DNA of 21,406 bases from a virus. Made by a program: the position numbers and the translations under genes. The stretch covers positions 1-21,406 of the IMG/VR virus record IMGVR_UViG_3300042923_000211; one strand, given 5' to 3'. The notes beneath the pieces are model-generated. The model ran no database searches. It was given only the letters and a program-made list of their open reading frames with translations, and was not told where the DNA came from. Shown here in pieces: positions 111 to 18,394 of the stretch (its first letter is position 1; every line of letters begins with the position of its first letter).

Positions 111-1354
111 CGGAGCTTCCCCTGTCGCGCTAGAAGTGCGTTAATAGCGTGCATCATATCGTTCTGGCTAAACTGAGTCCCACTAAGAGGACCCTGACCT
201 TCTCCACTCATACGCTTACGGAGAAGATCTTCCAGATACTGCTGGTTAACCTGATTCATAACAGGCTTACCATATTGATCGTCTTCACCAGAGTCGTATT
301 TACCAGCAACGACTGTAGGATCTGACATAACGTCGTTAATAGCGTCCATAATTGCGCTACTGGTAAATGTGTCTCCGCCCTGCTCTGCACTACCGTAAAT
401 CTCACCAAGGTAATTAGATGGGCCAGACATTCCATTAAGACCCTTGAAGAGAGAATTAACTCCCCCTGTAGCCTTCTGTGCCATTTCCTGCATACGAAGC
501 TGGAGATTAAACATATCCATTAGCCGGTCATACTCAGTCTCTTCCTGCTGCGCAACACGCTGAGAATCCTGTTGCTGTAGTTCCGCCAGCATAGACTGAA
601 TAGCGCCTTCTCGTCCAGCCCTAAGACCGGCCATTTTACCGCCAGCCTGCTGAAGATAATCTTCAAGTTGGGCAGCAATATCCTGTGCAGTATTTTCACC
701 AGCAAGACGAGTATTCTGAGATGTCTCCCTATTATAGGCTACATCAGAATTCTTCATTTCACTAAGCATTTGCAAAGCCGCTGCCTCATCATTTTGAGAC
801 TGCTGCTGAAAATAAGCCTGATCATCCATAGCCTGCTGTGAAGCTTCTGGAGCTGCGGCCTGAATACCAAGCTGCTTATAAAGCTCATTCTGCTGCTGCG
901 CCTGCTGCTGATACTGTCCCTGTAGCTGATCCTGTGTAGCATTATAACGGGATTCAGCTTCCTGAGAAGCCTGCTGCATTTGCTGTGTAATAGCAGGCAT
1001 TTCAGCTGCAATATCTCCAGCTAGAGCGTTATACATAGCCCTAGCTTCCTTCTGATTACCTTGTCCTCGTTGCTGAGTACGTGCCATTTCAGCTTCGAGC
1101 TGCTTAATAAGGGGATCAAATTGCGCCCCTGCTGCTCCTGTAGCCTGCTGCATAAGCTGGTCATAAGGAGTAGCTGCAACATTAATTCCCTGAATCTGCT
1201 TCATAAGCTGATCCAGAGGATTAACCGATTCTGAAGTATCTACAAGATTAGACTTAGACTTACCCTGCTTAGCCTGTGCATCAGCCTGCCGCCTAATAGC
1301 ATCTGCAAGACTGTTAGCAGTACCGCCAAGGTCGAAAATTCCAGGATCTGCCAT
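107..1354 (-). CDS. Glutamine-rich coiled-coil virion protein, candidate internal/ejection protein
   Basis: A 415-aa protein very rich in Gln, Ala, Met and Glu, with long predicted helices from about residue 75 to 300 and a particularly Gln-dense tract near residues 120-190. It has no signal peptide or clear catalytic motif. Podoviruses commonly encode large helical, Gln/Ala-rich proteins late in the head-tail cluster that are packaged inside the capsid and ejected with DNA; the composition and position after the tail hub suit that job. The start is an ATG sharing one base with the stop of the 141-aa gene (TAATG). It contains two exact copies of the dispersed 9-bp word, read here as Ala-Thr-Gly. 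The ejection role is an inference; a plain structural protein is the alternative. Confidence 0.6.
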   Translation of the reverse strand: MADPGIFDLGGTANSLADAIRRQADAQAKQGKSKSNLVDTSESVNPLDQLMKQIQGINVAATPYDQLMQQATGAAGAQFDPLIKQLEAEMARTQQRGQGNQKEARAMYNALAGDIAAEMPAITQQMQQASQEAESRYNATQDQLQGQYQQQAQQQNELYKQLGIQAAAPEASQQAMDDQAYFQQQSQNDEAAALQMLSEMKNSDVAYNRETSQNTRLAGENTAQDIAAQLEDYLQQAGGKMAGLRAGREGAIQSMLAELQQQDSQRVAQQEETEYDRLMDMFNLQLRMQEMAQKATGGVNSLFKGLNGMSGPSNYLGEIYGSAEQGGDTFTSSAIMDAINDVMSDPTVVAGKYDSGEDDQYGKPVMNQVNQQYLEDLLRKRMSGEGQGPLSGTQFSQNDMMHAINALLARQGKLR

Positions 1355-1779
1355 TAAATCCCCAACTTAGCTGCTCGTCGTCTAAGTGCATCCTGCCGTG
1401 CTGCATTTTGCTCTAGAGTAAGCTGCCGAAGAAAATTAGTTCTCTGCATACTAAGATCCCCGAGCTTATCGCTCTTACCCGTAAGCAGATTCTTCATCTT
1501 TGAATTAAACTCAGTATTGTAATCGCCTAGAGCCTTAGCGAAGACACCTGAATGGAGAATACCACGTCCAGCAAAATCGTTCTTTTGGTCATCCCTATCC
1601 GAAGTGCCCTGCCTATTCATAGACCGGACCATCTCACCATAATCGCGCTCGGTAATACCGCGCTGACGCTTATACTGAGACTCGTAATCGGACTTAGACT
1701 TCTTAAAGTTAGAAGACTGCTGCTGGTAAGTGGTATCTCCAGCAAGCCATTTAGCGGATGCCGACTGCTTCTTAGCCAT
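1354..1779 (-). CDS. Small basic helical structural protein
   Basis: A 141-aa, strongly basic protein (many Lys/Arg) with alternating charged helices and no membrane segment. The middle (about residues 35-85) is rich in Asp, Arg and Gly, and the C-terminus ends in a basic helix with RRRAAK. It sits between the LysM protein and the Gln-rich candidate ejection protein and is coupled to the latter by a one-base overlap. A GGAGGGTT-type ribosome site precedes the ATG in the 8-base gap after the LysM gene. Position and composition suggest a virion-internal or DNA-contacting protein, but I do not recognise a named family and no function is claimed. Confidence 0.6.
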   Translation of the reverse strand: MAKKQSASAKWLAGDTTYQQQSSNFKKSKSDYESQYKRQRGITERDYGEMVRSMNRQGTSDRDDQKNDFAGRGILHSGVFAKALGDYNTEFNSKMKNLLTGKSDKLGDLSMQRTNFLRQLTLEQNAARQDALRRRAAKLGI

Positions 1780-1787
1780 AACCCTCC

Positions 1788-2330
1788 TTACCGCTTAGGA
1801 ATGTAGAAGGTTCCGCCCCTGAAGATAAGGTTAGGACCACGCTTCTTCATAGTCTTTACAGTACCGGACTTACGATTCTTAAGGTTATAATCCCAAATCG
1901 TTTTCCAGTCCGTACCATGCTTCTTAGCAATACCGCTAAGAGTATCCCCGCGCTTAACCTTATAAGTACTGTGGTTTTTAACAGCCGCTGGAGGTCTAGG
2001 CTTTGGCTTAGGCTTTGGTTTAGGCTTAGTTGCTGTAGCCGATACAGAAGCTCTACCGGATCCGATCTGATACGGAATAGCTGCGCCAGCACCTACACCA
2101 TAGTCAGACTTACTAAAACCCTTATCTTCTCCCAAAATATTTTTGGTAGTATACTGTGCAGTAAATTTCTTACCAGTACCCGGAGCCAGTTTAGCCTTAG
2201 CCTGGGCTAGTTTAAGAGCCTTAGCCTTATCCCCAGAACTATCCTTGGCAAGCTTTCTCTTAATAGCGTCTTCTTTGGCCTTAATTTGTGCATCTCGGCT
2301 AGGCGATGCAGGAGTAGCAGGAGCCGCCAT
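1788..2330 (-). CDS. LysM-domain protein with Lys-Pro linker, virion-associated wall-binding candidate
   Basis: A 180-aa protein in three parts. There is a basic Ala/Lys-rich N-terminus (about 1-60) and a middle containing a KPKPKPKPKPRPP linker (about 103-115). A C-terminal LysM domain (about 122-180) shows the typical YKVKRGDTLSGIAKKHG start and an FYIPKR end. LysM domains bind N-acetylglucosamine-containing glycans of peptidoglycan. No hydrolase domain accompanies it. It lies in the tail/internal-protein cluster, so it probably helps the particle engage or cross the wall rather than serving as the endolysin. It starts at an ATG overlapping the previous stop by one base. The Lys-Pro tract is encoded by an imperfect repeat (roughly 1995-2035) that could vary in length between strains. 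Confidence 0.8.
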   Translation of the reverse strand: MAAPATPASPSRDAQIKAKEDAIKRKLAKDSSGDKAKALKLAQAKAKLAPGTGKKFTAQYTTKNILGEDKGFSKSDYGVGAGAAIPYQIGSGRASVSATATKPKPKPKPKPRPPAAVKNHSTYKVKRGDTLSGIAKKHGTDWKTIWDYNLKNRKSGTVKTMKKRGPNLIFRGGTFYIPKR

Positions 2331-2605
2331 TAACTAAACACCCCCTTAGATGTGTATCCCATTACACTTGCATTCATTGGATTACCTGTACCTGCTCCAT
2401 TCATTCTGCGAAGAATAGCGTTCTTTCTAGCACTAGCCCGATTATCACGCTCATCATAGCCCTGCGGGCTGGCTACAGGGCCGATAGTGGGCATAGGTCT
2501 ACCTGATCCGTAATGCTTATTTCCAGCCGCATACGGGTTAAAAGCCTTTTGCCCAGGTGGAGGATTAGGGACCTGCTTATTACCGAAATAGTCCACAGTA
2601 TTCAC
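2330..2605 (-). CDS. Small Gly/Asn/Pro-rich structural-cluster protein (GTG start)
   Basis: A 91-aa protein of low hydrophobicity, rich in Asn, Gly and Pro, with a short basic helix near residues 56-68. It begins at a GTG that shares its first base with the TAG of the tail-hub gene (TAGTG), which argues for translational coupling and makes the start fairly secure. It ends with another one-base overlap to the LysM gene. One exact copy of the dispersed 9-bp word lies near residue 43 and reads Pro-Val-Ala. Family unknown; its place between the hub and internal proteins suggests a minor virion component or assembly factor. Confidence 0.6.
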   Translation of the reverse strand: MNTVDYFGNKQVPNPPPGQKAFNPYAAGNKHYGSGRPMPTIGPVASPQGYDERDNRASARKNAILRRMNGAGTGNPMNASVMGYTSKGVFS

Positions 2606-4302
2606 TAGTTCACCGCCTTTGGCATAAGCTGTTTAGCCCCAATGAATCCTGTAATAGAGTACAGATAAGTAGGACCATCGCTGGTATTGCCCTGTGTAGC
2701 CATATTTACTTCGAACTGCAAAAGACGAAATCTCAGAGACTTAGGGAACCTTATAAACTTTACTTGTTTGCCTGAATCTCCGGTAACCTCTTGTTCAACA
2801 CTAGGAATAGCTGTAAGCGGATACGCCCATGTATTTAGTTCATGCCAGTGATAGATATGGAGCTGATTCCAGGTTACTCGGTAGGCTACAGAAAATGGAT
2901 ACAGGGTCCCTGTTACATTTCTTGAAGTATAGCAGTTGATACCCCAGTGCATCAAGCGCTTAAATCTATGACTCAGCCCGATATCGAATTGCTTAGTCTT
3001 CATAGAAAGGTTAATATCTACAGCAGGAAAAGCAGGAGACAGATCTCCATTTTCCGTATTGGTTGTGGTGTATTTATCTTCCATCTTGAAGATTTTAAAA
3101 AACATATTCCAGGCTCCAGAACTTCCCGGACCCTGAGAATCAATATTATTAGCCAACGTAGTCGAGGCTACATAGGTGTCATAACCACGTAGAAGATCTG
3201 TATTAGTGTTATCCAATCGAGTAATTGGTCCAAGATACTTAATATTAGTATCTTCGCTATCCCATCGAGTCCAACCACGCAAGCGAAGATGGTAGACATA
3301 AAGTCGGTTATAGAACCTAATTACAGCCCTATCCCCTACAATACTAAGCCAAAATGGCCATTTCCAAGACTGTCCGGGTTCTGTATATTCTTCGGCTACA
3401 GGGAAAGTGTCATCGTATTCGAATGGAATTTTGACGCTAACCCGCACGAAGTCATAATTAGACATTTCATATAGCTGATTGTATTTAAGGACAAAAACAG
3501 AGTTTTCGTATACGCCTACGCAATTACGACCCATCGCGCCGACGTCAGTATTGACTACCTGTAGGACAGCCTGAGCCGGCCCTGTATCATAAGCTAGTAC
3601 GTAAGTTGCATTATCTTTAAAAATTATAAGATTGTCTTGGTATACAATCAACTCATTAATTGCATCACCATCGCCAGGGGAAATATCGAAGAAATTTGTT
3701 CCTGGCCAGGTTGCAAAATCCGCAAGATCTGAGAAATACAAACGCGAATGAGGTCCTACACCACGCCTACCACTAATCCACAATCTGTCTTTATAAACTA
3801 CAGATGTGTATCCCATAGGCATATTAGGTAGTACAGTTACAAGCCCTCCAGCCAAGTCATATCTACAACCGGCATTAGGGCTATTAATATCGGGAACTAG
3901 GTATATATCGTCTGAATACCTATGTACTTTAGTGTGATTACCATCAGCAATTTTAGCCAAAATACCTGCGTTAACGCCATCTACATAGTAGATGTAAGTA
4001 GCCGCAACCCCCGTATGACTGCTGGTTACAACAACAAAACGATTCTCTTCATACACGCCTGTACCAATAACCAACTGATATGCTTCTGGGGGAGTATCTC
4101 CACTATCAGTGTTTACTTCATATTCACCGTGAAGCAATTGCCAAGGCGGTCGCGATACTAGCGAACCATCAAGACTCAGATCAAAATTAACGCAGTCCAC
4201 CATTTCATCATCTGCAATCATTGCAGGATCAGAATAGGTGTTAATTCCACCAGCAAATGGGCCAATCTCCATTTCCTGTACTGCTCTAGGATCCTTGGCC
4301 AT
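2605..4302 (-). CDS. Tail hub / stabilization protein (P22 gp10-like, T7 gp12-like class)
   Basis: A 565-aa, beta-rich protein with regularly spaced aromatic and Gly/Asp residues, as expected for a propeller-like podoviral tail hub. The N-terminus (about residues 8-60) has the pattern seen in such proteins: an opening acidic segment, GGIN, then a VDCVNFDL...GSLVSRPP stretch. The middle has repeated short strands typical of blades. In P22 and T7 relatives this protein plugs the bottom of the connector and closes the DNA channel. It follows the connector gene directly, matching the gp4-gp10 order. I start it at the ATG overlapping the stop of the connector gene by one base; an in-frame ATG 18 bases upstream is less likely. 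It carries one exact 9-bp repeat (FPVAEEY). Confidence 0.75.
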   Translation of the reverse strand: MAKDPRAVQEMEIGPFAGGINTYSDPAMIADDEMVDCVNFDLSLDGSLVSRPPWQLLHGEYEVNTDSGDTPPEAYQLVIGTGVYEENRFVVVTSSHTGVAATYIYYVDGVNAGILAKIADGNHTKVHRYSDDIYLVPDINSPNAGCRYDLAGGLVTVLPNMPMGYTSVVYKDRLWISGRRGVGPHSRLYFSDLADFATWPGTNFFDISPGDGDAINELIVYQDNLIIFKDNATYVLAYDTGPAQAVLQVVNTDVGAMGRNCVGVYENSVFVLKYNQLYEMSNYDFVRVSVKIPFEYDDTFPVAEEYTEPGQSWKWPFWLSIVGDRAVIRFYNRLYVYHLRLRGWTRWDSEDTNIKYLGPITRLDNTNTDLLRGYDTYVASTTLANNIDSQGPGSSGAWNMFFKIFKMEDKYTTTNTENGDLSPAFPAVDINLSMKTKQFDIGLSHRFKRLMHWGINCYTSRNVTGTLYPFSVAYRVTWNQLHIYHWHELNTWAYPLTAIPSVEQEVTGDSGKQVKFIRFPKSLRFRLLQFEVNMATQGNTSDGPTYLYSITGFIGAKQLMPKAVN

Positions 4303-4985
4303 TAGAAATAACCACCCCAATAGCCGTAGTTACCGTAGTTTTCGTCCTCAGGGAGTGTGGTAATACGAGGATAGTACTCCTGAGAGATCCACTTATTTCG
4401 GTCATTCAGTTTCATTACGTCATTCTCAAAATCTGCCTTAACAGTCTGAGCCTTCGAGTAATCCTCATCCAGTTCATAGGCTTCTTTAAGGCAGAATTTA
4501 ACTATAGCGTTGTGATACTGAAGAGGTACGGTAAGAGCGTCAGCCAACGTGCCAACAGACTCAGGATGTTTAATATAGTAGACAGTAAGCCCACCCGTAA
4601 GACTCTCATTTGGCTTAGGGAATACTGTGATCTTACCTTCCCAAACCATAAAGATCTCAGGAATACCAGGTCCATAAGGACTAAGAGTATCAGATGCCGA
4701 GTACCCATCAATGTACTCGTTAAACTCGGCAAATGACATTGGCTTCATCCTGTAGCCACGATATTTAAGACTACGCAATACGCTCATATCGGATGGAACA
4801 TCGTACTCCATCTGATTCTGTACCGTATCCGTTGAAGCTGTAGCCTCCATTAGACCTTCGTTCTCAAGAACAATCTTCTCTTGAGCATCGTTAATCCAAC
4901 GGATAATATCAGCGTCAGTTACCTGAACGCCAGCTTCATCACCAAATGTACGTTTTACTCGGGTTACGACGTCTTGCACGTTCAA
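4302..4985 (-). CDS. Head-to-tail connector/adaptor protein (gp4-like)
   Basis: A 227-aa protein. The N-terminal helices (about 1-45, with DADIIRWINDAQEKIV) are followed by a beta-containing middle with VPSDM near residue 63 and IPEIFMVWEG near residue 108. Helices near the C-terminus end in a Tyr/Gly-rich tail. This layout fits podoviral adaptor proteins such as P22 gp4 and T7 gp11, which dock twelve copies under the portal. Size and position immediately before the hub gene support the call. It overlaps the upstream 160-aa gene by 47 bases, an unusually long overlap for this operon, so the exact start could also be an internal codon. It holds one exact 9-bp repeat, the only copy read as Gly-Tyr-Arg. 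Confidence 0.75.
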   Translation of the reverse strand: MNVQDVVTRVKRTFGDEAGVQVTDADIIRWINDAQEKIVLENEGLMEATASTDTVQNQMEYDVPSDMSVLRSLKYRGYRMKPMSFAEFNEYIDGYSASDTLSPYGPGIPEIFMVWEGKITVFPKPNESLTGGLTVYYIKHPESVGTLADALTVPLQYHNAIVKFCLKEAYELDEDYSKAQTVKADFENDVMKLNDRNKWISQEYYPRITTLPEDENYGNYGYWGGYF

Positions 4986-5421
4986 GGTCGACCAACTCCC
5001 CTTGCTTATTACGAACCTTGTAAGAAGACTTAGGATTACGCAATACAGCGGCTGCTATTTCGTGATCCTCTTGTCTCTGCTCTTGTGCTTCTTTTGCTCG
5101 CATAAGCTCTAGAGCATTATTATAATTTTCTATGAAGTTGAGTTTGTTACTAGAAGCCCTCTGGTCAGCTTCAAAAACTTTAGCAAGCAGACGCTCATCC
5201 GCCTCTTCTGCCGTGCATACCAAGTAGGGCGAACGTCCCATAGGGAAACAGACAACTCGAAAAGCCAGATCATTAGATGAACGCTTATTCGGCGGAATCC
5301 ACTGCAATTGCAATGTCGAGTCATAGTCTCGCAGGATTTCATTTATACGCACCTGTTTCTGACTAACAAAATGTCCGTCTACAGGGAAATAGAAATTACC
5401 GTTAATTACCCTATCAGACAT
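4939..5421 (-). CDS. Hypothetical structural-cluster protein
   Basis: A 160-aa soluble protein. The first half looks mixed alpha/beta (residues 1-80, with several aromatics and one PMGRSPYLVC segment); the second half is a charged helix rich in Glu, Arg, Ala and Gln (about 85-135) and a basic tail. It starts at an ATG sharing one base with the stop of the 150-aa gene and overlaps the connector gene by 47 bases. The position between a capsid-associated protein and the connector suggests a head-completion or connector-associated role. I do not recognise the family and the function is open. Confidence 0.6.
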   Translation of the reverse strand: MSDRVINGNFYFPVDGHFVSQKQVRINEILRDYDSTLQLQWIPPNKRSSNDLAFRVVCFPMGRSPYLVCTAEEADERLLAKVFEADQRASSNKLNFIENYNNALELMRAKEAQEQRQEDHEIAAAVLRNPKSSYKVRNKQGELVDLERARRRNPSKTYIW

Positions 5422-5873
5422 TAGGAGCCCTCGATGCGAGTAGCTACAATCATAGCGTTATAATCTACTGCTGTTGTAGCCGCCCCTACTGCCACTACTG
5501 AGAAAGCTACCCCTTCAGCAGCATTAAAGTGAAACTCTGTAGAAATCGGAATATTAAGATCTCCGGCTACAGGAATATCAGAAATATTAGTGTCTCCGTA
5601 CTTGAACGCCATATTGAAGTTATCAGCCGCAGCAGGTGTTCCTGTACCACTAAGCCACGTAGTGACTACAACCTTGTGCAAATATCCAGATGCACTAGCG
5701 GGAGGCTGATGAGTTGCAATAGTGGCTCCGGCTACAGGAGCAGTTACAGTACCTGCACCAAAACCTGACTCATCGATTCCACTACCGGCACCAGAGGTTC
5801 GAAGAGAATATGTGCCGTCATTATTATCAACAAAAGCATTGTTAATAATTGTATTAGTAGATTCTGCTGCCAT
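5421..5873 (-). CDS. Small beta-rich capsid-associated protein, candidate head decoration
   Basis: A 150-aa protein rich in Ala, Gly, Thr, Val and Ser with alternating strand-like segments and very few charged residues, resembling an all-beta jelly-roll or Ig-like fold. It is the first gene after the major capsid gene and its terminator, where many phages place decoration or cement proteins. A ribosome site (GGAG) precedes the ATG. Two exact copies of the dispersed 9-bp word lie in it, both read as Pro-Val-Ala within Gly/Ala-rich turns (TAPVAGA, IPVAGD). The decoration role is an inference from position and composition; a tail-associated protein is possible. Confidence 0.55.
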   Translation of the reverse strand: MAAESTNTIINNAFVDNNDGTYSLRTSGAGSGIDESGFGAGTVTAPVAGATIATHQPPASASGYLHKVVVTTWLSGTGTPAAADNFNMAFKYGDTNISDIPVAGDLNIPISTEFHFNAAEGVAFSVVAVGAATTAVDYNAMIVATRIEGS

Positions 5874-5890
5874 TCTTACTCCTAGATAGA

Positions 5891-5922
5891 AAAAGCGGCT
5901 ACAGGGAGATTCCTGTAGCCGC
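5891..5922 (-). terminator. Rho-independent terminator behind the coat gene, built from the 9-bp repeat
   Basis: On the minus strand an 11-bp stem reading GCGGCTACAGG pairs with its complement around a short loop and runs into TTTTTCT. It lies about 20 bases past the coat protein stop codon and before the ribosome site of the 150-aa gene. Partial termination here would make coat mRNA more abundant than downstream messages. Both stem arms are exact copies (5897-5905 and 5912-5920) of the word dispersed through the left arm. Confidence 0.85.
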
Positions 5923-5943
5923 TCCCCTAGAGGCTAATTTATA

Positions 5944-7140
5944 TTAGCTCTCAGTAACGTCGTCAACAAGCCCGTGCGTATTACGACGGTGAGTACCGAG
6001 CTGGCAGTACTTAAACAGCGTAGAGTCATAAGCATCGTAACCAATAACTCGCTGCCACTTAGATCCATCGCGGTCCATAAAGGACCAGTCACCCTCGCGA
6101 TAGATCTTAAGTTCCTTCTCGTTCATAAAGTACATGCGGTTAGGCTGGCAGTCTACGTCAGAGATAACGGGGATCTCACCGTTATCCGTCGTAAATGCAA
6201 GGCCCTTAAATCCGCCCTCGAAGTCCTTAGTGTCGCAGTAACGACGCTGCTGAACCAGGAGGTTAAAGTAACTACGGCGCACACCGAGAGTTGTAAAGAT
6301 AGCGGTAGTGTTACCACCGTTAGTGTAGATATCGTCAACCATCTTAATCATAAGAGACTCAGACAGTGCACGATTAACGCCCGCGTTATCGTTGATAACC
6401 GACTTCCACACGGACTCTACAGACGGGTCAACGTTAAACAGCGTGGTTGTGTCGTCTACAATCTGCTCAAGACCGATAATCTCTCGGTTAAGCGAACCGT
6501 GACGAACAACAATGTCATTAGCAGCAGTGGCTACAGAAGGTGCAGCATCCAGCTCAATAGACGTGTCCTTAGTAACGTCTACAACTTCCGCACCGGCCGC
6601 AGCAGTCTTAAGCGTAGTACCCGTAGAGTCGTAAATATCTACGATCATACCGACTTCCATATACTGCGTATTAGCAGTAGGCACGGTAACCGTAGTATTG
6701 ACTCCACTAACCGTCATAAGGGCACCAACAGAGGTACCGTAAATCTGACGGTTAAAGTCCTTAGAGAGGTCTCGCTGAACGCCATTAACTTCCTCATCCA
6801 GAACGGATGCGAAAGCCTGGAAATTAGACTGCGCAAGTTCCATCGACTGCCCAGAGAGTCGAATAGAACCATACTGATAACTAAGACCGACCTGCGCACG
6901 CGCATAACCCTGATTACGGGCTACAGGAAGCTCTTCCATTTCCAGTCGCGCACCGATACCGTGGTTACGCTTAACGTGGATAGGGAAGACAACATACTTA
7001 CCGCCGACTTCAGAAGTAACACCTTCTGAAGTCTGCTCAATACGCTTAGAAGTCTTAAGGTGATTCTGGAGCTGTTCCCGAATACGGGGCTCGTAAATTT
7101 CCTTGAGGATATTAGTTGCAGTTGTGAGCGTAGCGCCCAT
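5944..7140 (-). CDS. Major capsid (coat) protein
   Basis: A 398-aa protein of HK97-fold coat size. The N-terminal helix (MGATLTTATNILKEIYEPRI) leads to a segment typical of actinophage coat proteins, with GGKYVVFPIHVKRN near residue 47 and a long helix near residues 100-140. A Thr/Val/Ala-rich insertion (about 160-210) follows, then a conserved C-terminal half. It lies immediately after the scaffold, with a strong GGAGG site three bases before the ATG and a terminator directly behind it, as expected for the most abundant virion protein. I see no N-terminal protease or cleavage signal. It contains one exact 9-bp repeat (LPVARN). Confidence 0.88.
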   Translation of the reverse strand: MGATLTTATNILKEIYEPRIREQLQNHLKTSKRIEQTSEGVTSEVGGKYVVFPIHVKRNHGIGARLEMEELPVARNQGYARAQVGLSYQYGSIRLSGQSMELAQSNFQAFASVLDEEVNGVQRDLSKDFNRQIYGTSVGALMTVSGVNTTVTVPTANTQYMEVGMIVDIYDSTGTTLKTAAAGAEVVDVTKDTSIELDAAPSVATAANDIVVRHGSLNREIIGLEQIVDDTTTLFNVDPSVESVWKSVINDNAGVNRALSESLMIKMVDDIYTNGGNTTAIFTTLGVRRSYFNLLVQQRRYCDTKDFEGGFKGLAFTTDNGEIPVISDVDCQPNRMYFMNEKELKIYREGDWSFMDRDGSKWQRVIGYDAYDSTLFKYCQLGTHRRNTHGLVDDVTES

Positions 7141-7151
7141 TAGCCTCCGAG

Positions 7152-11067: not shown

Positions 11068-11079
11068 TAACCTCCCCTC

Positions 11080-11280
11080 TTAAAAGAGCCCATTAATACC
11101 ACCAAAGTCCTGCAATGCATCATCAGGACTATCATAAGCACGTTCAGGATCAATACCCTGCTGCTTATATTGTTCTGCAAGTCTTTTGGCTACAGAAGCA
11201 TCGTCACCAGGAAGATATTCGGCTACAGGAGATACCAAATTATTAGTCGTCGTCAAAGTCTGTAGTGTCGAAAAGGTCAT
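11080..11280 (-). CDS. 66-aa protein before portal
   Basis: A 66-aa protein with a polar Thr-rich N-terminus and an acidic helical C-terminus (about 27-66, ending DALQDFGGINGLF). I use the ATG at 11280, preceded by AAGGA at a normal distance; it overlaps the end of the 164-aa gene by 38 bases. Longer in-frame extensions upstream lie entirely within the 164-aa gene and have hydrophobic, unlikely content. One exact 9-bp repeat (SPVAEY) and one near copy (SVAKR) occur. Function unknown; it ends 12 bases before the portal start. Confidence 0.6.
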   Translation of the reverse strand: MTFSTLQTLTTTNNLVSPVAEYLPGDDASVAKRLAEQYKQQGIDPERAYDSPDDALQDFGGINGLF

Positions 11281-11737
11281 CGGGTCCTTCGACATTATCA
11301 GATTCGTTAGCCTTTGATTCTCCTGAAACAGCTTCGTTATCATTAACTCGTTGTTCTTCTGGCTTTTCCACCCCAGAAATGCGAGAACGCAGATTGTCAA
11401 AATCCAAATCAGGCTTACTAGTCCTAGACTCCACGACATTACTAATAGCCTTTTCGAAGGGCTCATACCGAACCACAAGCTGATCATACTTAACTTGAAG
11501 TTCACGATAAGCGTTGTGCAGATTATCAAAATTCGCTACAGGGATGTAATCCGCTGCGGACGAGACTTCTACAATACATTCTGTGCAGATATAGACTGTG
11601 CCGTACCATTCTATCTGCTTACCGAAGTCAATAAACTTACGCTTACCGTCTCCGGCAGAGCCGCAGAGAAAACAAACTCCAGGAGCCAGAATAGGGTTAT
11701 TAAGTACGTGGAGTCTAGACTGTGCGCTAACGGGCAT
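11243..11737 (-). CDS. Zinc-ribbon plus coiled-coil acidic protein
   Basis: A 164-aa protein with two CxxC pairs (CFLC at about 22-25 and CTEC at about 51-54), spaced as in a single zinc-ribbon module. A likely coiled coil (about 70-110) and a long acidic tail rich in Asp, Glu, Asn and Ser follow. The zinc module resembles those found in ClpX N-termini and in many small phage proteins, so a protein- or nucleic-acid-binding role is plausible. It sits between the large terminase and the portal, coupled to its upstream neighbour by TAATG. Similar zinc-ribbon hypothetical proteins are frequent in actinophages. A packaging-accessory role is only an inference from position. Confidence 0.7.
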   Translation of the reverse strand: MPVSAQSRLHVLNNPILAPGVCFLCGSAGDGKRKFIDFGKQIEWYGTVYICTECIVEVSSAADYIPVANFDNLHNAYRELQVKYDQLVVRYEPFEKAISNVVESRTSKPDLDFDNLRSRISGVEKPEEQRVNDNEAVSGESKANESDNVEGPDDLFDTTDFDDD

Positions 11738-12006
11738 TACTCGTCTCCGAATTCCATATCGAAAGAAGAGTCCTCATCGGGGCTAACCATGTTAATAACC
11801 GGCTGAACACTAGAAGGCACAGAACTAGAAGGCATAAGAGTCGGGTAACGAACTTCACGCCTGGCTACAGAGGGCTCCCGCTTTTCAAAACGTGCTGCCT
11901 TATCTTCAATAGCCTGCTTCTCCTGTTCGTCCAGGAATACCGTAGGGTTAGCCTCCCCAAGAGTCGGGTTGCTAAAAAGTTCCGGGTTAGTCTGTGAGAG
12001 TCGCAT
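11737..12006 (-). CDS. 89-aa acidic hypothetical protein after large terminase
   Basis: An 89-aa protein with an Asn/Pro/Thr-rich N-terminus, a charged helix (about 27-52), a Ser/Pro/Val-rich linker and an acidic end. No cysteines or membrane segments. Its ATG shares one base with the TAA of the large terminase and its stop overlaps the next start the same way, so it is firmly in the operon. It carries a near copy of the 9-bp word (SVARRE). I do not recognise the family. Confidence 0.6.
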   Translation of the reverse strand: MRLSQTNPELFSNPTLGEANPTVFLDEQEKQAIEDKAARFEKREPSVARREVRYPTLMPSSSVPSSVQPVINMVSPDEDSSFDMEFGDE

Positions 12007-13547
12007 TAATAATCCTCATCATTTAGAACGACGTTATTCCAGATGGTCTTTTTCCTGAGGTTATCTGGACTCAGGTTAGGGTCCAAATTAGGAGCAGTAG
12101 CGTGCTTAGCACTATTGCCACCAATCGCAGGAAGCTCCATCTTTTTATTTGGAAGCTTAGGTATCGGCTTAAGCTCTGGAAGGAACGAGAAACAGTATCT
12201 TGCAGAGTCACAGGCGTGGTCGTTTTTCTTATGAATTTGATCATAAGCGTTATTCTCCGACTGCTGCTTTTTAGACGCCCATGTCTTCCATCGCAACCTT
12301 TGGATTTCTTTAATCAGATTAGCACAGTTTCCAGTGATGAGCCAGTTCGGTTTGCCATCGGCAGCGGTATCCAAATACTGATTAACTTTAGCTACACCTG
12401 TTAGCACATCATTATTACCAAGAGCCATACCAATACCTCTAATAGCGTACTCAGTCTGAATGGAAGTTCCAGTAACCGCATTACGCTGTGCTAGTGCAGG
12501 ATCACATACCCTAATATCTGGAGCCTTTCCAAACTCCTTCTCTCGACTCTTAATTACTTCTGCATGATAATCAACGGTACCCTCAGACTCGTAATGCTCG
12601 GCGAAGGTAATAATCCGGCCATCGCGATCCACCACATGCCATAGCACTGCTGTAGGGTTATTAAACCCGTGGTCTAGAGACATATACCACTTATAATTAG
12701 GCCCTCTAAACTGCTTAGGATCAATAGGATCAATAACATGCGTCTTAACGGCGAACTTCTTGTATACCAGACCACCGCGTGTTACGAATTTACCGTGCCC
12801 TCGAATATCACGTTCTTCAGGGCTAAGCTTACTAAGAAACTCCTCAACTTCATCCATATCAAGGTGAGGGTTCTCAGTCATATCTACTTCAATAACATCA
12901 ATACCAGGATTAATGCCCGCAATACCCGGCTCATAAAGTTGATCGAAAATCCATGCCATACCCTCAACAGGGGTAAGCGTGAACCACTCTCGACCCTTAC
13001 GGTCAATAAGACGTGCTAGACATTCAATTCGAATATCTTCTGGAGGTTCCTCATCATAGTGAATAAAATCACGGCTAGTACCGGCAAATTTATCCAGATC
13101 CTGGTCATAACTCATAAGCTCTACAAAAGAGCCATTTTCAAAATTAAGTACACGCTCCATAGAGTCATAAGCTGAGAACCATGAACCACCCCTAAGCTGA
13201 GAGGGTGGTACCCACTGCTTAAGCTGGGGGATAATAATCTTATTGACACCGTTAGCAAAGTCAACTGAGATAATACGGCCGGCTACAGGGCGTTGTGGGG
13301 TTTCGATATACGGGTGTCTATTAGTAAGCCACCAAATATCCTCTACAATTCCACCAGTAGTCTTACCAGAACGGTTACCTCCAATATAGAGGCGAGACTT
13401 CTTGGTGGATGAGTGGAAAAGTTCCTGCTTAGCATGTGGTGTATACGAGTTAATATCCGGTGCATAAGCTACACGAGTAAGGCCTTCAGTAAGCTCTTTG
13501 ATAGCGTCTTCTATCGAGCTAATATCGTTAATCTTTTTCTTAGGCAC
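12006..13547 (-). CDS. Terminase large subunit (DNA packaging motor)
   Basis: A 513-aa protein with both terminase activities. The ATPase part has Walker A GGNRSGKT at about 56-63 and a Walker B-like FIHYDEEP at about 161-168. The nuclease part has acidic residues in LDHG (about 292), CDP (about 349) and NDHACD (about 442-447). Length is normal. I start at a GTG overlapping the stop of the upstream gene by 8 bases; a longer reading frame upstream lies inside the tail-tip gene and gives an unlikely hydrophobic N-terminus. No good ribosome site is visible, so coupling probably matters. It hydrolyses ATP to pump DNA into the procapsid and cuts the concatemer. One exact 9-bp repeat lies at about 86-88 (RPVAGR). 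Confidence 0.92.
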   Translation of the reverse strand: MPKKKINDISSIEDAIKELTEGLTRVAYAPDINSYTPHAKQELFHSSTKKSRLYIGGNRSGKTTGGIVEDIWWLTNRHPYIETPQRPVAGRIISVDFANGVNKIIIPQLKQWVPPSQLRGGSWFSAYDSMERVLNFENGSFVELMSYDQDLDKFAGTSRDFIHYDEEPPEDIRIECLARLIDRKGREWFTLTPVEGMAWIFDQLYEPGIAGINPGIDVIEVDMTENPHLDMDEVEEFLSKLSPEERDIRGHGKFVTRGGLVYKKFAVKTHVIDPIDPKQFRGPNYKWYMSLDHGFNNPTAVLWHVVDRDGRIITFAEHYESEGTVDYHAEVIKSREKEFGKAPDIRVCDPALAQRNAVTGTSIQTEYAIRGIGMALGNNDVLTGVAKVNQYLDTAADGKPNWLITGNCANLIKEIQRLRWKTWASKKQQSENNAYDQIHKKNDHACDSARYCFSFLPELKPIPKLPNKKMELPAIGGNSAKHATAPNLDPNLSPDNLRKKTIWNNVVLNDEDY

Positions 13548-14217
13548 TGTAGTACCAATGATATGCCGTATTGTAGTGAAGACCGTCAAACCATATATGC
13601 TGAGTCGCAGTACTGTTAAAACAACGAACCGAACTAGTGCCGTCTTCATTCATAAAAAATCTACCCCCGGTATTACCGGCTTTACCCGCAGCACTTTGAA
13701 TAGGACTTAGAGCGGTAGTATACATAGCCTCAAAACATGGGCGAAGTCCTAGAGGTAGTGTCTTAAACACACTAAAAGACGTAGCAGAAGGAATACCTAC
13801 TGATGTTCTACTAATACGTCCACGCCAATGACACCAACCGCGACTATCCAAAGCTATTTGAACTGGTGCTGTTGTACCCAACTGGAAATTAGCATCTTGA
13901 ATAGCTGTAGCTGGTACATTGACCCAAGGAGAAGTAATCTGTTGAATGGGGCGCCAATGCCAGCCCCAGTTTTCATCTTTACAAACTAGTATATAAAGAC
14001 TAGGCCACGTTGTATCAGTCCTAGCATCATCTCTAAATACCATATCAAATAGCTCATAATCCCCTACTTGGGGCAGAGCTGCGCCTGCGGCAATAACTGT
14101 AGGCTCACCTTTAGAGGCGATAATTTCAAAGTTATCCGTAATATTAACTTCTACGTCTGCCATGCTGTCAGACTCGTCTGGCATAAAGAAGCCATAGTTA
14201 CTGGTAGTTGTACCCAT
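13540..14217 (-). CDS. Tail-tip / receptor-binding protein, third paralogue
   Basis: A 225-aa protein starting at the ATG that overlaps the previous stop by one base. The N-terminus (about 6-30) has the pattern Y-x-F-F-M-P-D-E-S-D...V-x-x-N-I-T-x-N-F, matching the two paralogues upstream and the usual virion-attachment segment of small tail fibre/tip proteins. The C-terminal two-thirds are beta-rich with a GWCHWRGR motif (about 125-132) followed by a TLPLGLRP segment, echoing VHLRGR...TLPTSAMP in the 216-aa protein. Likely a trimeric receptor-binding protein displayed on the short tail. It is unusual in having no exact 9-bp repeat. The role is inferred from module structure and position. Confidence 0.6.
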   Translation of the reverse strand: MGTTTSNYGFFMPDESDSMADVEVNITDNFEIIASKGEPTVIAAGAALPQVGDYELFDMVFRDDARTDTTWPSLYILVCKDENWGWHWRPIQQITSPWVNVPATAIQDANFQLGTTAPVQIALDSRGWCHWRGRISRTSVGIPSATSFSVFKTLPLGLRPCFEAMYTTALSPIQSAAGKAGNTGGRFFMNEDGTSSVRCFNSTATQHIWFDGLHYNTAYHWYYSA

Positions 14218-14858
14218 TAATACCACCACTCGATGCCATCAAGCATAATAAAATTACCACCACCAGCGTCTCCCTGATACCGTACAGAAATAGCTGTACG
14301 ATCAGGTACTGTTCTCCTCTGAATCCAAATAACCGCAGAAGCAAAACCACTAGCCGTAGTAACGGCTCCTGTAGCCCCTTGTTGAATAGATACTCCATCT
14401 ACATTAGCAGGAGCTAGAGACGACTGAATAGCTGTGTCTGTAGTAATCTCATATGTTGTTGCAGTATTCCAAGCATCCGCAGTAGCGTTAAGCTGGACAC
14501 CACCCATAAGCACAATACGTCTAGACAGCGTGTCTATCTTAGCTTCTAGAGTATATCCTGTACGGGCTATTACAGGAGCCCTAAGACTAACTGGTTGCCA
14601 GGCTTCCCAAACATTCGCAGGATTAACACTGCCAGACCATTCAATACCATTCCATACAGCCATGCGATCTGAACCGTCGTCAGGTCGCATAGCCATGGTA
14701 CCTTTAGGAATTGTTATTCCAGTAAAATCAGCCGGCTGCTGATTAAAGGGAAGAAGCTTAGTCTCTACTTCTTCCCAGTTATTATTAAGCTGTGTTACTT
14801 CATCTACTGTTTCGTCATTAGGAGGCGTAGTTACGTAATTGAAATCAAAATACGCCAA
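14217..14858 (-). CDS. Tail-tip / receptor-binding protein, second paralogue (TTG start)
   Basis: A 213-aa protein read from a TTG directly after the TAA of the 48-aa gene, with GAGG upstream; no in-frame ATG fits. The N-terminus (about 1-30) keeps the attachment pattern P-P-N-D-E-T-V-D-E-V...L-N-N-N-W-E-E-V-E. A short segment (about 45-75) then resembles the metal- or carbohydrate-binding turns common in phage tips (MAMRPDDGSDRMAVWNG). The remainder is beta-rich. It shares architecture with the flanking 216-aa and 225-aa proteins but has diverged strongly, as expected for receptor-contact domains. One exact 9-bp repeat is read as Ala-Thr-Gly (GATGAV). Confidence 0.6.
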   Translation of the reverse strand: MAYFDFNYVTTPPNDETVDEVTQLNNNWEEVETKLLPFNQQPADFTGITIPKGTMAMRPDDGSDRMAVWNGIEWSGSVNPANVWEAWQPVSLRAPVIARTGYTLEAKIDTLSRRIVLMGGVQLNATADAWNTATTYEITTDTAIQSSLAPANVDGVSIQQGATGAVTTASGFASAVIWIQRRTVPDRTAISVRYQGDAGGGNFIMLDGIEWWY

Positions 14859-15005
14859 TTACACCTCTTCTTCAATTACAGGATCCTCGACTACAGGAGG
14901 ATTAACAATTTCTGGTTGCGCAGGCGGAACATAGATATCTTCGGCTACAGGAGGGGTTGGGACTTCTTCCTCCGTAGTCTCTGAATCTCCAATATTAAGA
15001 GGCAT
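14859..15005 (-). CDS. 48-aa Pro/Glu/Val-rich protein
   Basis: A 48-aa acidic, proline-rich protein with two related segments, TPPVAEDIYVPP and NPPVVEDPVIEEE. ATG overlaps the upstream TAA by one base, and its own TAA directly abuts the TTG of the next gene. The protein is probably unstructured. One exact 9-bp repeat and one single-mismatch copy encode the two Pro-Val segments. It may be a small linker or chaperone for tip proteins, or may exist mainly to couple translation to the TTG start. Function unknown. Confidence 0.55.
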   Translation of the reverse strand: MPLNIGDSETTEEEVPTPPVAEDIYVPPAQPEIVNPPVVEDPVIEEEV

Positions 15006-15655
15006 TAGTCATCCAATCCGTAGTAAGCGCCATTAAGAGAAATGTATCTTTCTTGCGCGCTGCTCGCTACTCCCCCATACCTACAGAACTCTAGTCTGGG
15101 ATCTGCTGCACCTGATTCTGGTATAAAAAGCCGCGCACACTGAAAATCTGCTCCAGCATTACCGCCGTACACTGTGAAATACTTATTCCTAGCAGGCATG
15201 GCCGAAGTAGGGAGTGTCATAAAGTTAACTGTAGTGTTTAGAGGCAAATCTGTAGCGGTGCCATTAAGACATAGACGACCGCGTAGATGAACAAATCCAT
15301 CCTGAATAGCGTACGCAATACGACTTTCCTCTAGGTTAACGCTACCGTAACCGGCTTCAAATGTAATACCTGCAACATCCCAGTTCGTTACAACTGAGTT
15401 GACATCAGTAATTGCAGTAGTAGACGCTGCACTGAGGAAATACCAAGAATTTGTGTAGGTCTTAAACCACTTATAACCTACATCCTTAGGAATTGATGAA
15501 ACGCTAATACTCGCCTCATCAGTTCGCTGCATCTCTACAAGAGCTTTAACGCGCTCATCGGCTCTATCCCAATTATAATTGAGATCCTGCTCAACATTAA
15601 CTAGCTCATCACCATCAGGCAGATAGAATCTCTGGGTTGGCGTGTAGTCACCCAT
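15005..15655 (-). CDS. Tail-tip / receptor-binding protein, first paralogue
   Basis: A 216-aa protein whose first 40 residues (TPTQRFYLPDGDELVNVEQD, then LNYNWDRADERV) give the clearest version of the attachment module shared by the three tip paralogues. The rest is beta-rich, with a GFVHLRGR motif at about 120-127 and a TLPTSAMP segment at about 147-154, typical of compact C-terminal head domains of phage tip proteins. It follows the amidase by a one-base overlap. It probably contacts the cell surface at the tail tip. There is no exact 9-bp repeat. The role is inferred. Confidence 0.62.
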   Translation of the reverse strand: MGDYTPTQRFYLPDGDELVNVEQDLNYNWDRADERVKALVEMQRTDEASISVSSIPKDVGYKWFKTYTNSWYFLSAASTTAITDVNSVVTNWDVAGITFEAGYGSVNLEESRIAYAIQDGFVHLRGRLCLNGTATDLPLNTTVNFMTLPTSAMPARNKYFTVYGGNAGADFQCARLFIPESGAADPRLEFCRYGGVASSAQERYISLNGAYYGLDD

Positions 15656-16389
15656 TACTTAATCCCAAGATGCTTTATAACCTTGTCCAGATCTGATTCG
15701 ATATTCTCCAGAAGCTGACGATCAGAAGGCTTGGCTACAGAAGGCTTATTGGCTACAGGGGGCTTAGGCTTATAGTTTGCACCCTTCTTAAATCGGGATG
15801 CAATGTCCTTCTGTACTTCCTCCATATCCATCATCTTATTCGGAGCATAACCAGGATCCCATTTACCGGGCTGCCACTGTCCGTGTCCCAGGATGGAATT
15901 CTCGTTCCAATTATGGAAATCTATAATCGCGCAAGACAGTAGAATTCCTGTCTCATACTGAGCATCAGTCATAGGAGTTGATCCTGAGTACATAAACTCA
16001 GCACCATAAAGCCTAGCATTACCGTCGGTGTTAGACTCGTTATCCGTGGGAAACTTAAGCTTCTCAGCTATAACTGCATCTAGTACGTCATCATCACCGA
16101 GACCAGCGTGATTAGCGCGGCCCCACCCAATGAGATAACAAATACCATTAGTAGCAATACCAAAATTGCAGAGAGGGCCCGGAAGTCCACTGTAGCCCTT
16201 TCTCAAAAGGCTAATCTGATCTGCTGTAGAGGTATTAGATCCAGTGTGATGCCACATAAAGCCATTAACAGGACCCCATGGGCCCTTGTGATTACGGTTA
16301 TGGTTAGCCCAACTATCGGTAGTCCTGTAAGGAACTCCCCACTCCTTAAGTTGAACAACTATCTGTGCTGCTGTCATTGGCGTTGCCAT
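15655..16389 (-). CDS. N-acetylmuramoyl-L-alanine amidase endolysin
   Basis: A 244-aa Amidase_2-family enzyme that cuts the bond between N-acetylmuramic acid and the stem peptide. Visible hallmarks are MWHHTG (His at about 47-48), NHAG (about 93-96) and GHGQWQPGKWDPG (His169, Lys176, Asp178), which together supply the zinc ligands and catalytic residues. After the catalytic domain (about 1-202) comes a KPKPPVANKPSVAK linker and a short C-terminal helix (about 224-244), too small for a known wall-binding domain. No signal peptide, so a holin is needed. I use the ATG at 16389 rather than a TTG six bases earlier. The linker contains one exact and one near 9-bp repeat. Lying beside tip genes, it might instead be a virion enzyme. 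Confidence 0.88.
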   Translation of the reverse strand: MATPMTAAQIVVQLKEWGVPYRTTDSWANHNRNHKGPWGPVNGFMWHHTGSNTSTADQISLLRKGYSGLPGPLCNFGIATNGICYLIGWGRANHAGLGDDDVLDAVIAEKLKFPTDNESNTDGNARLYGAEFMYSGSTPMTDAQYETGILLSCAIIDFHNWNENSILGHGQWQPGKWDPGYAPNKMMDMEEVQKDIASRFKKGANYKPKPPVANKPSVAKPSDRQLLENIESDLDKVIKHLGIK

Positions 16390-16391
16390 AA

Positions 16392-16820
16392 TCAAACCTG
16401 CCTAAAGTTAACGAACTTATCGAGGAGGGCTATTACATCTGCTACTGTAGCCGCGGCTGGAATAGTCCACTCAGGTTCTGTCTCACCATCTACTGTGGTG
16501 GACATTTGTAGTGGTCCTATCTTTTTGGAGTTATAACCATCGTGATTATGGTCTCCAGGACTGGCCTGATTATGCTTAGGACCTAGAGTGTGGTGCAATG
16601 ACCGGGGTCCCAGATCCACGTCAGACCGACTGTGTGCCCTCCTGGACTCCTGCGGAGCATCATCCGACCACTTGGACCGGTCATAGTCTGCATTATAGGT
16701 TTGCCCAAATTGATCAGGCGTAGTCTCATTACGAACCTGATTAACCTGAGAACGCCTGAATTTGTTGACGTCAAACTTAGTAGGTTTAAGTTCCCTACCT
16801 ACACCCTCTTCATTAACCAT
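16392..16820 (-). CDS. His-rich fibre-type minor structural protein
   Basis: A 142-aa protein with a charged N-terminal half and a His/Gly-rich motif at about 75-97, SLHHTLGPKHNQASPGDHNH followed by Asp-Gly. That motif recurs in actinophage minor structural proteins, where such HxH repeats can bind metal ions and fold trimeric fibres. The C-terminus is a short helix. It overlaps the zinc-finger gene by 8 bases. Placement just before the amidase and tip proteins suggests a tail or head-fibre component. It contains a near copy of the 9-bp word. Confidence 0.6.
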   Translation of the reverse strand: MVNEEGVGRELKPTKFDVNKFRRSQVNQVRNETTPDQFGQTYNADYDRSKWSDDAPQESRRAHSRSDVDLGPRSLHHTLGPKHNQASPGDHNHDGYNSKKIGPLQMSTTVDGETEPEWTIPAAATVADVIALLDKFVNFRQV

Positions 16821-17010
16821 GACTCTCCTTACAGGTGCAGCCGTCTACAGGGTCCCAAGAATAACAGATATTTTTATAGTCCTTATGTCCGCAAGGATAG
16901 TTACGAATAATGTCATCACGGCGACCCGCTACTTGCCTACCACATTCAGTGCATCTAAGATGGGGATTAGCATACCGAGTAATAGTGTAAGTCCGTACAC
17001 TTACTGCCAT
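16813..17010 (-). CDS. 65-aa zinc-finger protein
   Basis: A 65-aa protein with seven potential ligands: CTEC (about 20-23), CGH (about 40-42), C at about 49 and CTC near 58-60. This is consistent with one or two small zinc sites. Basic residues precede the second half. Its ATG overlaps the TGA of the small terminase by one base. Small zinc proteins of this kind are common near terminase genes and may bind nucleic acid or partner with packaging proteins, but no specific family is recognised here. Confidence 0.65.
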   Translation of the reverse strand: MAVSVRTYTITRYANPHLRCTECGRQVAGRRDDIIRNYPCGHKDYKNICYSWDPVDGCTCKESHG

Positions 17011-17699
17011 CAGATTATCTCTTTTCTGGTTGACACACCCGGAATCGAATTAGATTTGGCTACAGGAGAGCCAGACTCAATAGCAATTTGGCTCATCTCT
17101 ACCGCGAGGGCATTGAGCTTAGCCGGGTCCTTAATGTGCTTCTGGATAGCTTCTAGCACTCGACCGATAACCAAACGCACGTTAACGTTAGATTCCTTGT
17201 CAGGATCGTACCTACCAGTGAGCTTATAGTAGAGCTGAATACTGGCGGTATTACCCTGGTTAACTCCACGCAATAGGCCCAAGTGTGCCATGTGGGTAGA
17301 GTTATTAATCATCTGCTCTGAGCGCTGCCTAACATATTCCGCAAAGTGATTATTCAGAAGCCATGTGGACCATTCCTCAGTACTGATACCGAGATCGCGA
17401 AGCTTCTTTTCATCACTACGTCTATCGACAAGATTAAGCATTGCGGCTACAGCGGCTAGCTGTCGAGCACTAATAAAAGAGTCACTGCTAGCAATACCAC
17501 GGCTCTGCATAGATGCCTGGAATAGAGGATTCTCTTTAAGTACATTAACGTCCTCCTCATTAACGTCATGCCTGAGCAGCCTCAGATAACTAACTATATC
17601 ATCCTCAGGAGGAAAAGCACCAGCAACACTATGTATACGTTCTACGTAATTAACTACATCGCGCTGCCATGGTTCCAAATATTCTTGAGCTTCACTCAT
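17010..17699 (-). CDS. Terminase small subunit candidate
   Basis: A 229-aa, mainly helical protein. The region at about 100-165, with SEQMINNSTHMAHLGLLRG and ASIQLYYKLTGRYDP, resembles the conserved core of actinophage and Firmicutes small terminases that carry an N-terminal HTH. The N-terminal helices (about 20-75) could form that DNA-binding part. Small terminases recognise the packaging site and hand DNA to the large subunit. Here about 3.5 kb, holding the amidase and tip genes, separates it from the large subunit, an unusual split. I use the ATG at 17699, which overlaps the upstream stop by 8 bases; a GTG nine bases earlier is possible. One exact 9-bp repeat lies in the flexible C-terminal tail (SPVAKS). 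Confidence 0.72.
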   Translation of the reverse strand: MSEAQEYLEPWQRDVVNYVERIHSVAGAFPPEDDIVSYLRLLRHDVNEEDVNVLKENPLFQASMQSRGIASSDSFISARQLAAVAAMLNLVDRRSDEKKLRDLGISTEEWSTWLLNNHFAEYVRQRSEQMINNSTHMAHLGLLRGVNQGNTASIQLYYKLTGRYDPDKESNVNVRLVIGRVLEAIQKHIKDPAKLNALAVEMSQIAIESGSPVAKSNSIPGVSTRKEII

Positions 17700-17862
17700 C
17701 CCAATCACTACCCCAATCCTCTTCGGTCATCGTGCCGGAGAGGATTTTCTTTTGAATATGTTCAGGTACATCTTCCCAAGCCACAATAGTCTGATCCCTT
17801 CTAGTTACATAAAGAGGGTAAGGCTCGTAAAGCCTGTGACTAAGCTGAAATTCGTCACTCAT
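17692..17862 (-). CDS. 56-aa acidic hypothetical protein
   Basis: A 56-aa protein starting at the ATG with an ideal GGAGG site five bases upstream; a longer in-frame version lacks one. It is acidic at the C-terminus (TEEDWGSDWDE) and has a Tyr/Pro-rich middle. The stop overlaps the small-terminase start by 8 bases. Function unknown; tight linkage to small terminase hints at a packaging or regulatory partner. Confidence 0.6.
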   Translation of the reverse strand: MSDEFQLSHRLYEPYPLYVTRRDQTIVAWEDVPEHIQKKILSGTMTEEDWGSDWDE

Positions 17863-17872
17863 AATTCCTCCA

Positions 17873-18394
17873 TTAGCTTTCGCTGGTCTTAAATCCCGCT
17901 CCAATAAGGTTAAGCTCTGTGAGTACCTTCTTCAATTGGCTAGGCATAGTGTGCGTATCCCCTTCTTCGTAATCCGTTACCGGAGAAGGATGCAAACACA
18001 TATCTACACAAAATGCGTGTGCACTAGGCCAATAGTCACCGCGCCACTGACGGAAAATACGGTGGTAGTAGATAATATTGTGTTCTCTAAAAGATGGTTG
18101 CGCCACGCGGTCAAAATCAGTTATGGCTACAGGGAGGAGTGCCTTATTTAGCTTGACACTTTCGCGCTGCTGCCACTGCCACTCTCTATAGAGCTGAGTA
18201 ATCATCTCGGGTGTAACCGGCTTGTCGAGACTCTTATTGAGAGTTTCTGTAGTCCAGCTAATTACATCGTCATTAGGCTTATCGTACAGGCCCTGTTCGA
18301 GACGTGACAAATACTGACGGCTGACACCAATATCTTTGGCGAGGCGTGTCGTGGAATATGAAGACAGATAACGGGCGTACGAAATAGGATTCAT
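17873..18394 (-). CDS. XRE-type helix-turn-helix regulator
   Basis: A 173-aa protein with an N-terminal HTH (about 13-38: STTRLAKDIGVSRQYLSRLE, then QG), the classic Cro/CI-type signature. The C-terminal domain (about 95-173) is rich in Trp, His and Cys (FRQWRGDYWPSAHAFCVDMC), unlike the peptidase domain of LexA-type repressors. It is the first gene of the leftward arm, directly behind a strong promoter and an ideal GGAGG site at 18400-18404, so the start is 18394, not the frame opening 102 bases upstream inside the promoter. It may bind the repeat between the divergent promoters and set early-late timing. No integrase is visible here, so calling it a lysogeny repressor is not justified. One exact 9-bp repeat (LPVAIT). 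Confidence 0.78.
   Translation of the reverse strand: MNPISYARYLSSYSTTRLAKDIGVSRQYLSRLEQGLYDKPNDDVISWTTETLNKSLDKPVTPEMITQLYREWQWQQRESVKLNKALLPVAITDFDRVAQPSFREHNIIYYHRIFRQWRGDYWPSAHAFCVDMCLHPSPVTDYEEGDTHTMPSQLKKVLTELNLIGAGFKTSES

Follow-up and report, generated by a model that had tools for sequence, protein, structure and literature searches.

A repeated nine-base word in a soil-phage genome fragment as a candidate initiation site of an AEP-type phage primase

The word and its copies in the window

The stretch of DNA analysed here (the window, 21,406 bases; IMG/VR record IMGVR_UViG_3300042923_000211, positions 1 to 21,406) is a fragment of a soil-phage virus record that covers the late arm, with the primase and polymerase genes lying outside it. 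It belongs to a group of phages of roughly 45 kb, in which the podovirus Jasmine (Arthrobacter), Cellulosimicrobium DS1, Microbacterium Shocker and the environmental genome ctEqG8 come nearest to it among the named members. A nine-base word, GGCTACAGG, recurs in the window at 21 exact sites (14 on the plus strand and 7 on the minus strand) that span positions 465 to 18133. These copies, with the way in which each is read, are:

465-473, minus: Ala-Thr-Gly reading, gene 107-1354
1137-1145, minus: Ala-Thr-Gly, gene 107-1354
2471-2479, plus: Pro-Val-Ala, gene 2330-2605
3394-3402, plus: Pro-Val-Ala, gene 2605-4302
4749-4757, minus: Gly-Tyr-Arg, gene 4302-4985
5565-5573, plus: Pro-Val-Ala, gene 5421-5873
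5730-5738, plus: Pro-Val-Ala, gene 5421-5873
5895-5922: inverted word pair in a terminator-like hairpin, copies 5897-5905 (plus) and 5912-5920 (minus)
6919-6927, plus: Pro-Val-Ala, major capsid gene 5944-7140
7599-7607, plus: Pro-Val-Ala, gene 7152-7955 in a scaffold-like position
8517-8525, plus: Pro-Val-Ala, 55-residue protein 8448-8615
9296-9304, minus: Ala-Thr-Gly, portal gene 8899-11067
10664-10672, minus: Ala-Thr-Gly, portal gene 8899-11067
11221-11229, plus: Pro-Val-Ala, further open reading frame 11080-11529 outside the coding set used
13281-13289, plus: Pro-Val-Ala, terminase large subunit 12006-13541
14368-14376, minus: Ala-Thr-Gly, gene 14217-14858
14943-14951, plus: Pro-Val-Ala, 48-residue protein 14859-15005
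15751-15759, plus: Pro-Val-Ala, endolysin 15655-16395
17058-17066, plus: Pro-Val-Ala, tail of the terminase small subunit 17010-17708
18125-18133, plus: Pro-Val-Ala, gene 17873-18496

A preliminary description of this sequence had reported the 21 sites, their 14:7 orientation and a purine as the next letter in 20 of 21, and recounting bore out all three (the next letter is A in 12, G in 8 and T in 1). Dinucleotide shuffles of the window contained a mean of 0.31 copies and a maximum of 2. The core GGCTACAG was found 34 times in the window, versus 1.7 expected under a third-order Markov model, and a final G was preferred. Eighteen copies lie inside the coding set used, where they are read as Pro-Val-Ala in 12, Ala-Thr-Gly in 5 and Gly-Tyr-Arg in 1; these three readings, together with the copies in the hairpin, agree with the earlier view of a DNA-level site that is independent of reading frame. 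It had also been allowed that a codon-preserving shuffle might return around 20 copies. When all proteins and the codon usage were kept, 0.64 coding copies were expected against the 18 seen, and a synonymous shuffle that additionally kept the neighbouring-base context gave a mean of 1.55 and a maximum of 5. These shuffles show that neither codon usage nor dipeptide content nor the local base context accounts for the word. The Pro-Val-Ala tripeptide itself is in excess in the window proteins (13 versus 1.7 expected) and is spelled CCTGTAGCC in 12 of the 13 cases, which indicates that the word has altered the proteins of the window.

The hairpin at 5897-5920, downstream of the major capsid gene, has a perfect 11-bp stem formed by the two inverted copies, followed by a run of T on the minus strand (fold z = -5.4). 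Close inverted word pairs were likewise observed in the relatives G010, G012 and G014.

Alignment with relatives at 71-79% nucleotide identity showed that the exact word was kept at 20-64% of aligned sites, versus 9-20% for other 9-mers. In close relatives the word thus survives at about 3 to 6 times the rate of other 9-mers, a point that the preliminary description had left to such an alignment. In the relative G003 (69% identity), none of 16 aligned sites was exact, and several now read YCTACAGG in the same place. Based on this survival and on the G003 alignments, the sites are thus kept under constraint, gained, lost and rewritten in place into a new dialect.

The final 3.3 kb of the window is without copies (p = 0.03), and the word had been described as a feature of the late arm. 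That limit is probably an effect of the fragment, because the complete relatives have words in both arms and carry them genome-wide; a function specific to the late arm was rejected on these grounds. The region past the late arm (18512-21148) holds plus-strand genes with no word copies; one of its products, a 282-residue protein (19671-20519), had no PHROG match.

Word dialects and their association with an AEP primase and DNA polymerase I

The comparison covered about 70 phages, both related and unrelated. Among the fully read relatives, the top words differ from that of the window but keep a common core, ACAG/CTGT:

G003: YCTACAGGG
G012: TGCTACAGGGG
G009: CGCGACAGGGG, with CGCGACAG present in 48 copies versus 1.1 expected
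G010: CGCTACAG
G018: CCGCCACAG
Jasmine, Adat and Casserole: YCCCACAG
DS1: AGCGACAG
Shocker: CCTTTACAG
ctEqG8: CCTACAGG

Seven further relatives (G005, G006, G007, G008, G015, G016 and G017) had no comparable word on the enrichment count. In Shocker (L149), another word, TACCCTAA, is strongly enriched as well (15 copies versus about 0 expected), and its enriched words further include CTACCCTA and, alongside CCTTTACAG, CCGACAGG. Different words, TCCGCCAC/GTGGCGGA and CACGGTCA, were observed in L178, a contig with an archaeo-eukaryotic (AEP) primase (about 23 copies each, ~1.5 expected).

In the complete relatives, the words occupy both arms and both strands and are mostly within coding DNA. Over 12 genomes, 76-100% of word sites were coding, with 264 in the sense and 311 in the opposite orientation. 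Most complete genomes have about one site per 1-3 kb on each strand, close to the usual length of Okazaki fragments. In many dialects, the core is followed by purines on the primer side. Sites were evenly spaced in Jasmine and its relatives alone, and there on a single strand.

The presence of a word follows the replication genes. All 10 word phages and none of the 7 wordless relatives had DNA polymerase I (Pol I). Most word phages also encode a primase-helicase of about 600 residues (the G010 protein ends at the contig end), whereas the wordless relatives have the helicase part alone, of about 350-440 residues, with the AEP domain missing. Those relatives (L135-L146 and L153-L163) have similar structural genes and keep the helicase without the AEP domain and Pol I. 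In Jasmine, DS1, Shocker and ctEqG8, Pol I is a single gene; at L108, L112, L115, L118 and L122 (G001, G003, G012, G009 and G010, respectively) it is divided into two genes, one for the exonuclease and one for the polymerase, which are separated by a gap.

The assignment to the AEP family is based on motifs, a fold match and annotated relatives. The AEP motifs DxD, SxH and, further on, an invariant D are found in the N-terminal part of the protein, and a helical domain comes after them. An AlphaFold2 model of the region comprising the AEP and helix-bundle domains (AEP-HBD; pLDDT 87) matched the RepB' primase 3h20 (E 2e-9), the cyanophage S-2L PrimPol (E 2e-8) and the RepB' structure with initiator DNA, 3h25. 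Pfam recognised the AEP domain below its cut-off only, and a sequence search of solved structures with the primase gave no match. By predicted fold and motifs, the protein family is an AEP primase domain joined to a helix-bundle domain (HBD) and a helicase. It includes gp39 of Jasmine and gp97 of the Curtobacterium phage Shrew, in which the AEP-HBD part comprises about residues 1-340. Several genes annotated as "DNA recombinase" or "RecA-like recombinase" in Serratia, Microbacterium, Gordonia and Pseudomonas phages (L252, L256, L251 and others) are AEP primase-helicases by similarity.

Searching with the primase alignment retrieved 80 contigs. The wider test covered 61 non-redundant contigs of at least 9 kb; the window was counted among the 47 that encode the AEP, although its own primase is not on the record. 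Of about 2000 6-mers, one containing ACAG ranked among the first 5 in 38/47 AEP-encoding contigs (in first place in 25) versus 1/14 of those lacking the AEP (Mann-Whitney p = 2e-7 over the 61 contigs). Four families occur in all 41 larger AEP-encoding contigs (a large virion protein, the primase-helicase, Pol I and a RecB-like nuclease), and only the AEP-helicase, as a fusion or a pair, and Pol I are missing from the wordless relatives. On the primase tree, the letter that precedes ACAG switches 5 times, versus 15 in shuffles. Two relatives with the same GGCTACAGG-type word as the window, L167 and L171, encode an AEP-HBD primase.

Fit to the known specificity of AEP primases

For the AEP-HBD primases of pRN1 and phage NrS-1, GTG is essential (GTGA/GTGG being best); the HBD reads it, and synthesis starts at the base or bases directly 5' of GTG (PMC8076596, PMC8718748). 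The NrS-1 primase, NrSPol, uses GTGA/GTGG and TTTGGTTA, and most of its starts lie at the base immediately 5' of the site (PMC8718748). HSV-1 UL52 and human PrimPol use 3'-GTC-5', i.e., CTG (PMC10345425). On the template strand, with a hyphen placed after the putative start base T, the phage words read CT-GTAGCC (window), CT-GTCGCG, CT-GTGGG, CT-GTAAAGG and GT-GTGG. Across these dialects GTG or GTx stands directly 3' of that T, and the CT-GTG dialect of Jasmine is an exact fit to the published AEP rules.

Unrelated phages provided additional data. It was noted before looking that phages with homologous primases should carry a word with a CT-GTN-type core, and nine unrelated sipho-type phages (of Pseudomonas, Serratia, Gordonia, Curtobacterium, Microbacterium and Brevundimonas, and one uncultured) were fetched. 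The top 6-mer was GTGTGG in seven and CTGTGG/CCTGTG in two; these contain GTG/GTGG, the known site of two AEP primases, preceded by T. In Shrew, GGTGTGGA was present in 37 copies versus 1.7 expected. Gordonia phage GTE2, a control that proved to carry an annotated primase, had GTGTGG first and was counted as positive (10/10). None of the 20 control phages or contigs, in which no AEP of this family was recognised, had such a top 6-mer. Enrichment thus goes with the primase and is absent without it in the unrelated phages, as it is in the related contigs.

These comparisons of sequence make it very likely that the phage's own primase initiates at the word, and we infer from them recognition of the word, priming and the position of the start. 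We hypothesize that, in this group of phages, an AEP-type primase domain followed by an HBD and a helicase domain, and encoded beside a family A DNA polymerase, would act at a template site 5'-(pyrimidines)CT-GTx...-3'. The HBD would read the bases from GTx on (GTAGCC in the window; GTCGCG, GTGGG, GTAAAGG or GTGG elsewhere), and the catalytic domain would begin primer synthesis opposite the T that immediately precedes GTx, yielding a purine-rich A-G-G-R. For the dialect of the window, a template 5'-CCT-GTAGCC would give a primer AGG... with GTAGCC as the recognition sequence. Pyrimidines predominate on the copied side in the Jasmine-like group, which would give purine-rich primers such as AGGRG; the far side, which forms the dialect, is presumably read by the helix bundle, and dialects would follow changes in the HBD. 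Selection, or drift towards the site, may have planted the word about every 0.5-1 kb on both strands wherever the proteins tolerate it, because a site of this length is rare by chance. Recognition would differ between lineages, so that each phage would have its own dialect and its genome would have changed along with it.

The proposed site resembles those of the AEP-HBD enzymes pRN1 ORF904 (GTG) and NrSPol in having a GT core 3' of the start base and a start opposite the adjacent base. The AEP, HBD and helicase layout is also alike, and a GTGG core is enriched in the ten unrelated phages. The window word is longer (GTAGCC, not GTG), the role of the window's primase is a predicted one, and no description of genome-wide enrichment or dialects was found for pRN1 or NrS-1. 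The T7 gp4 primase offers a further comparison, as it makes sequence-specific lagging-strand starts next to the start base on a pyrimidine template, giving a purine-rich primer. It is a TOPRIM/zinc-type primase with the template site 5'-GTC, and such short sites are frequent by chance; we know of no planted words for it. No description of a site of exactly GGCTACAGG was found in the open-access literature, in agreement with the preliminary description, nor was any earlier description found there of planted primase sites that shape proteins genome-wide or of site dialects.

Several of our observations weigh against primase recognition of the word. The word was weak, or none was in the top 5, in 9/47 AEP-encoding contigs; the window is a fragment without a primase gene, and its link to the enzyme runs via L167 and L171. 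The AEP and Pol I always occur together, so their association alone does not single out the primase, and the losses in the Jasmine-like group provide too few independent pairs for a test. A length of 8-10 specific bases exceeds that of most known primase sites, the precedent being the 8-base TTTGGTTA of NrSPol. The class of words counted in the unrelated phages was fixed after the top words of the nine had been seen, although the expectation of a GT core and the published GTG/GTGG motif preceded those counts. Phage 1706 has a lax AEP primase with no HBD, and its CCAAC site is not enriched, which indicates that a lax primase does not write its genome. PrincessTrina (L248, L249), which has no recognised or annotated AEP primase, has AACAGG enriched (64 versus 17); GAGCTC is also frequent in it (24 versus 3). 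Lastly, any lagging-strand bias of the sites is weak or confounded with gene direction. Strzyga shows a clear strand flip at 30 kb near the primase gene that coincides with gene direction, and strand polarity was judged unconvincing as proof of lagging-strand use.

Alternative readers of the word and implications

The preliminary description had suggested that a phage or host protein might bind the word, and the comparative data favour a reader that is probably a phage protein. A different phage DNA-binding protein, travelling with the replication module and organising or marking the DNA, would suit sites on both strands and in coding DNA as a binder of duplex; we consider it unlikely that the word is the site of such a protein, for example gp33, a zinc-finger protein of Jasmine, or one with a nucleoid or regulatory role. 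Homologues of gp33 were found in 8/10 word phages and 0/7 wordless relatives, but not in Shocker, ctEqG8 or most of the wider AEP-encoding set, which carry words nonetheless, and gp33 is therefore unlikely to be the sole reader. Such a reading would also make the GTG match to known primases a coincidence, and it is the AEP-helicase and Pol I that are lost from the wordless relatives. The gp33 gene (L147:29736-30413; homologue, e.g., L108:12667-13239) encodes a zinc-finger protein of ~200 residues at the end of the early operon and occurs in word phages only. Recombination was also considered, as the RecB-like nuclease occurs in 41/41 AEP-encoding contigs examined and an AAA-ATPase in 38, and the word might direct these enzymes in a Chi-like manner. 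Both families are present in the wordless relatives, however, and strand polarity is inconsistent (near 1:1 in most complete genomes), which makes this analogy of the preliminary description quite improbable.

A signature imposed by the host and mirrored by the phage (a HIP1-like repeat, an uptake-like word, or an effect of restriction or methylation) is more doubtful still. The layout does recall the DNA uptake sequences of Neisseriaceae, which serve natural transformation of the host cells and are dense short words on both strands, in coding DNA and in inverted-pair terminators, with dialects around a constant core. Those are a feature of host cells, whereas the phage word tracks the replication module. 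In a comparison of phage genomes, CapnMurica and Galaxy, which share Jasmine's Arthrobacter strain, lacked the Jasmine word, which leaves a HIP1 reading and the uptake analogy of the preliminary description unsupported; close phage relatives use different words, and GTGTGG in the Pseudomonas, Serratia, Gordonia and Microbacterium phages follows the primase, not the host. Least probable of all is an array of repressor sites or stoperators. The stoperators of cluster A mycobacteriophages are likewise many asymmetric sites in actinobacteriophages, with family-specific variants, and the phage words too occur in many copies with variants around a constant core; stoperators, however, are repressor sites that are mostly intergenic and oriented with transcription. 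The words lie mostly inside genes in both orientations, at odds with the stoperator analogy of the preliminary description, and no repressor or integrase is annotated in Jasmine-like genomes.

Primase sites are a known kind of element, and sequence specificity is known in vitro for a few AEP primases. Our data tip modestly towards a broader proposal, that AEP-HBD phages carry planted priming words genome-wide and that these dialects co-evolve with the primase, so that the text of the genome records its specificity. If so, the specificity of a primase would be readable from a genome by counting words, and many annotated "DNA recombinases" could be re-identified as primase-helicases with a predicted site. 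Matched pairs of enzyme and site would become available for study of the evolution of primase specificity. A primase acquired by a swap would face a genome spelled in a dialect not its own, which would be an obstacle to the exchange of modules, and limits set by priming sites on the exchange of replication modules would become testable.

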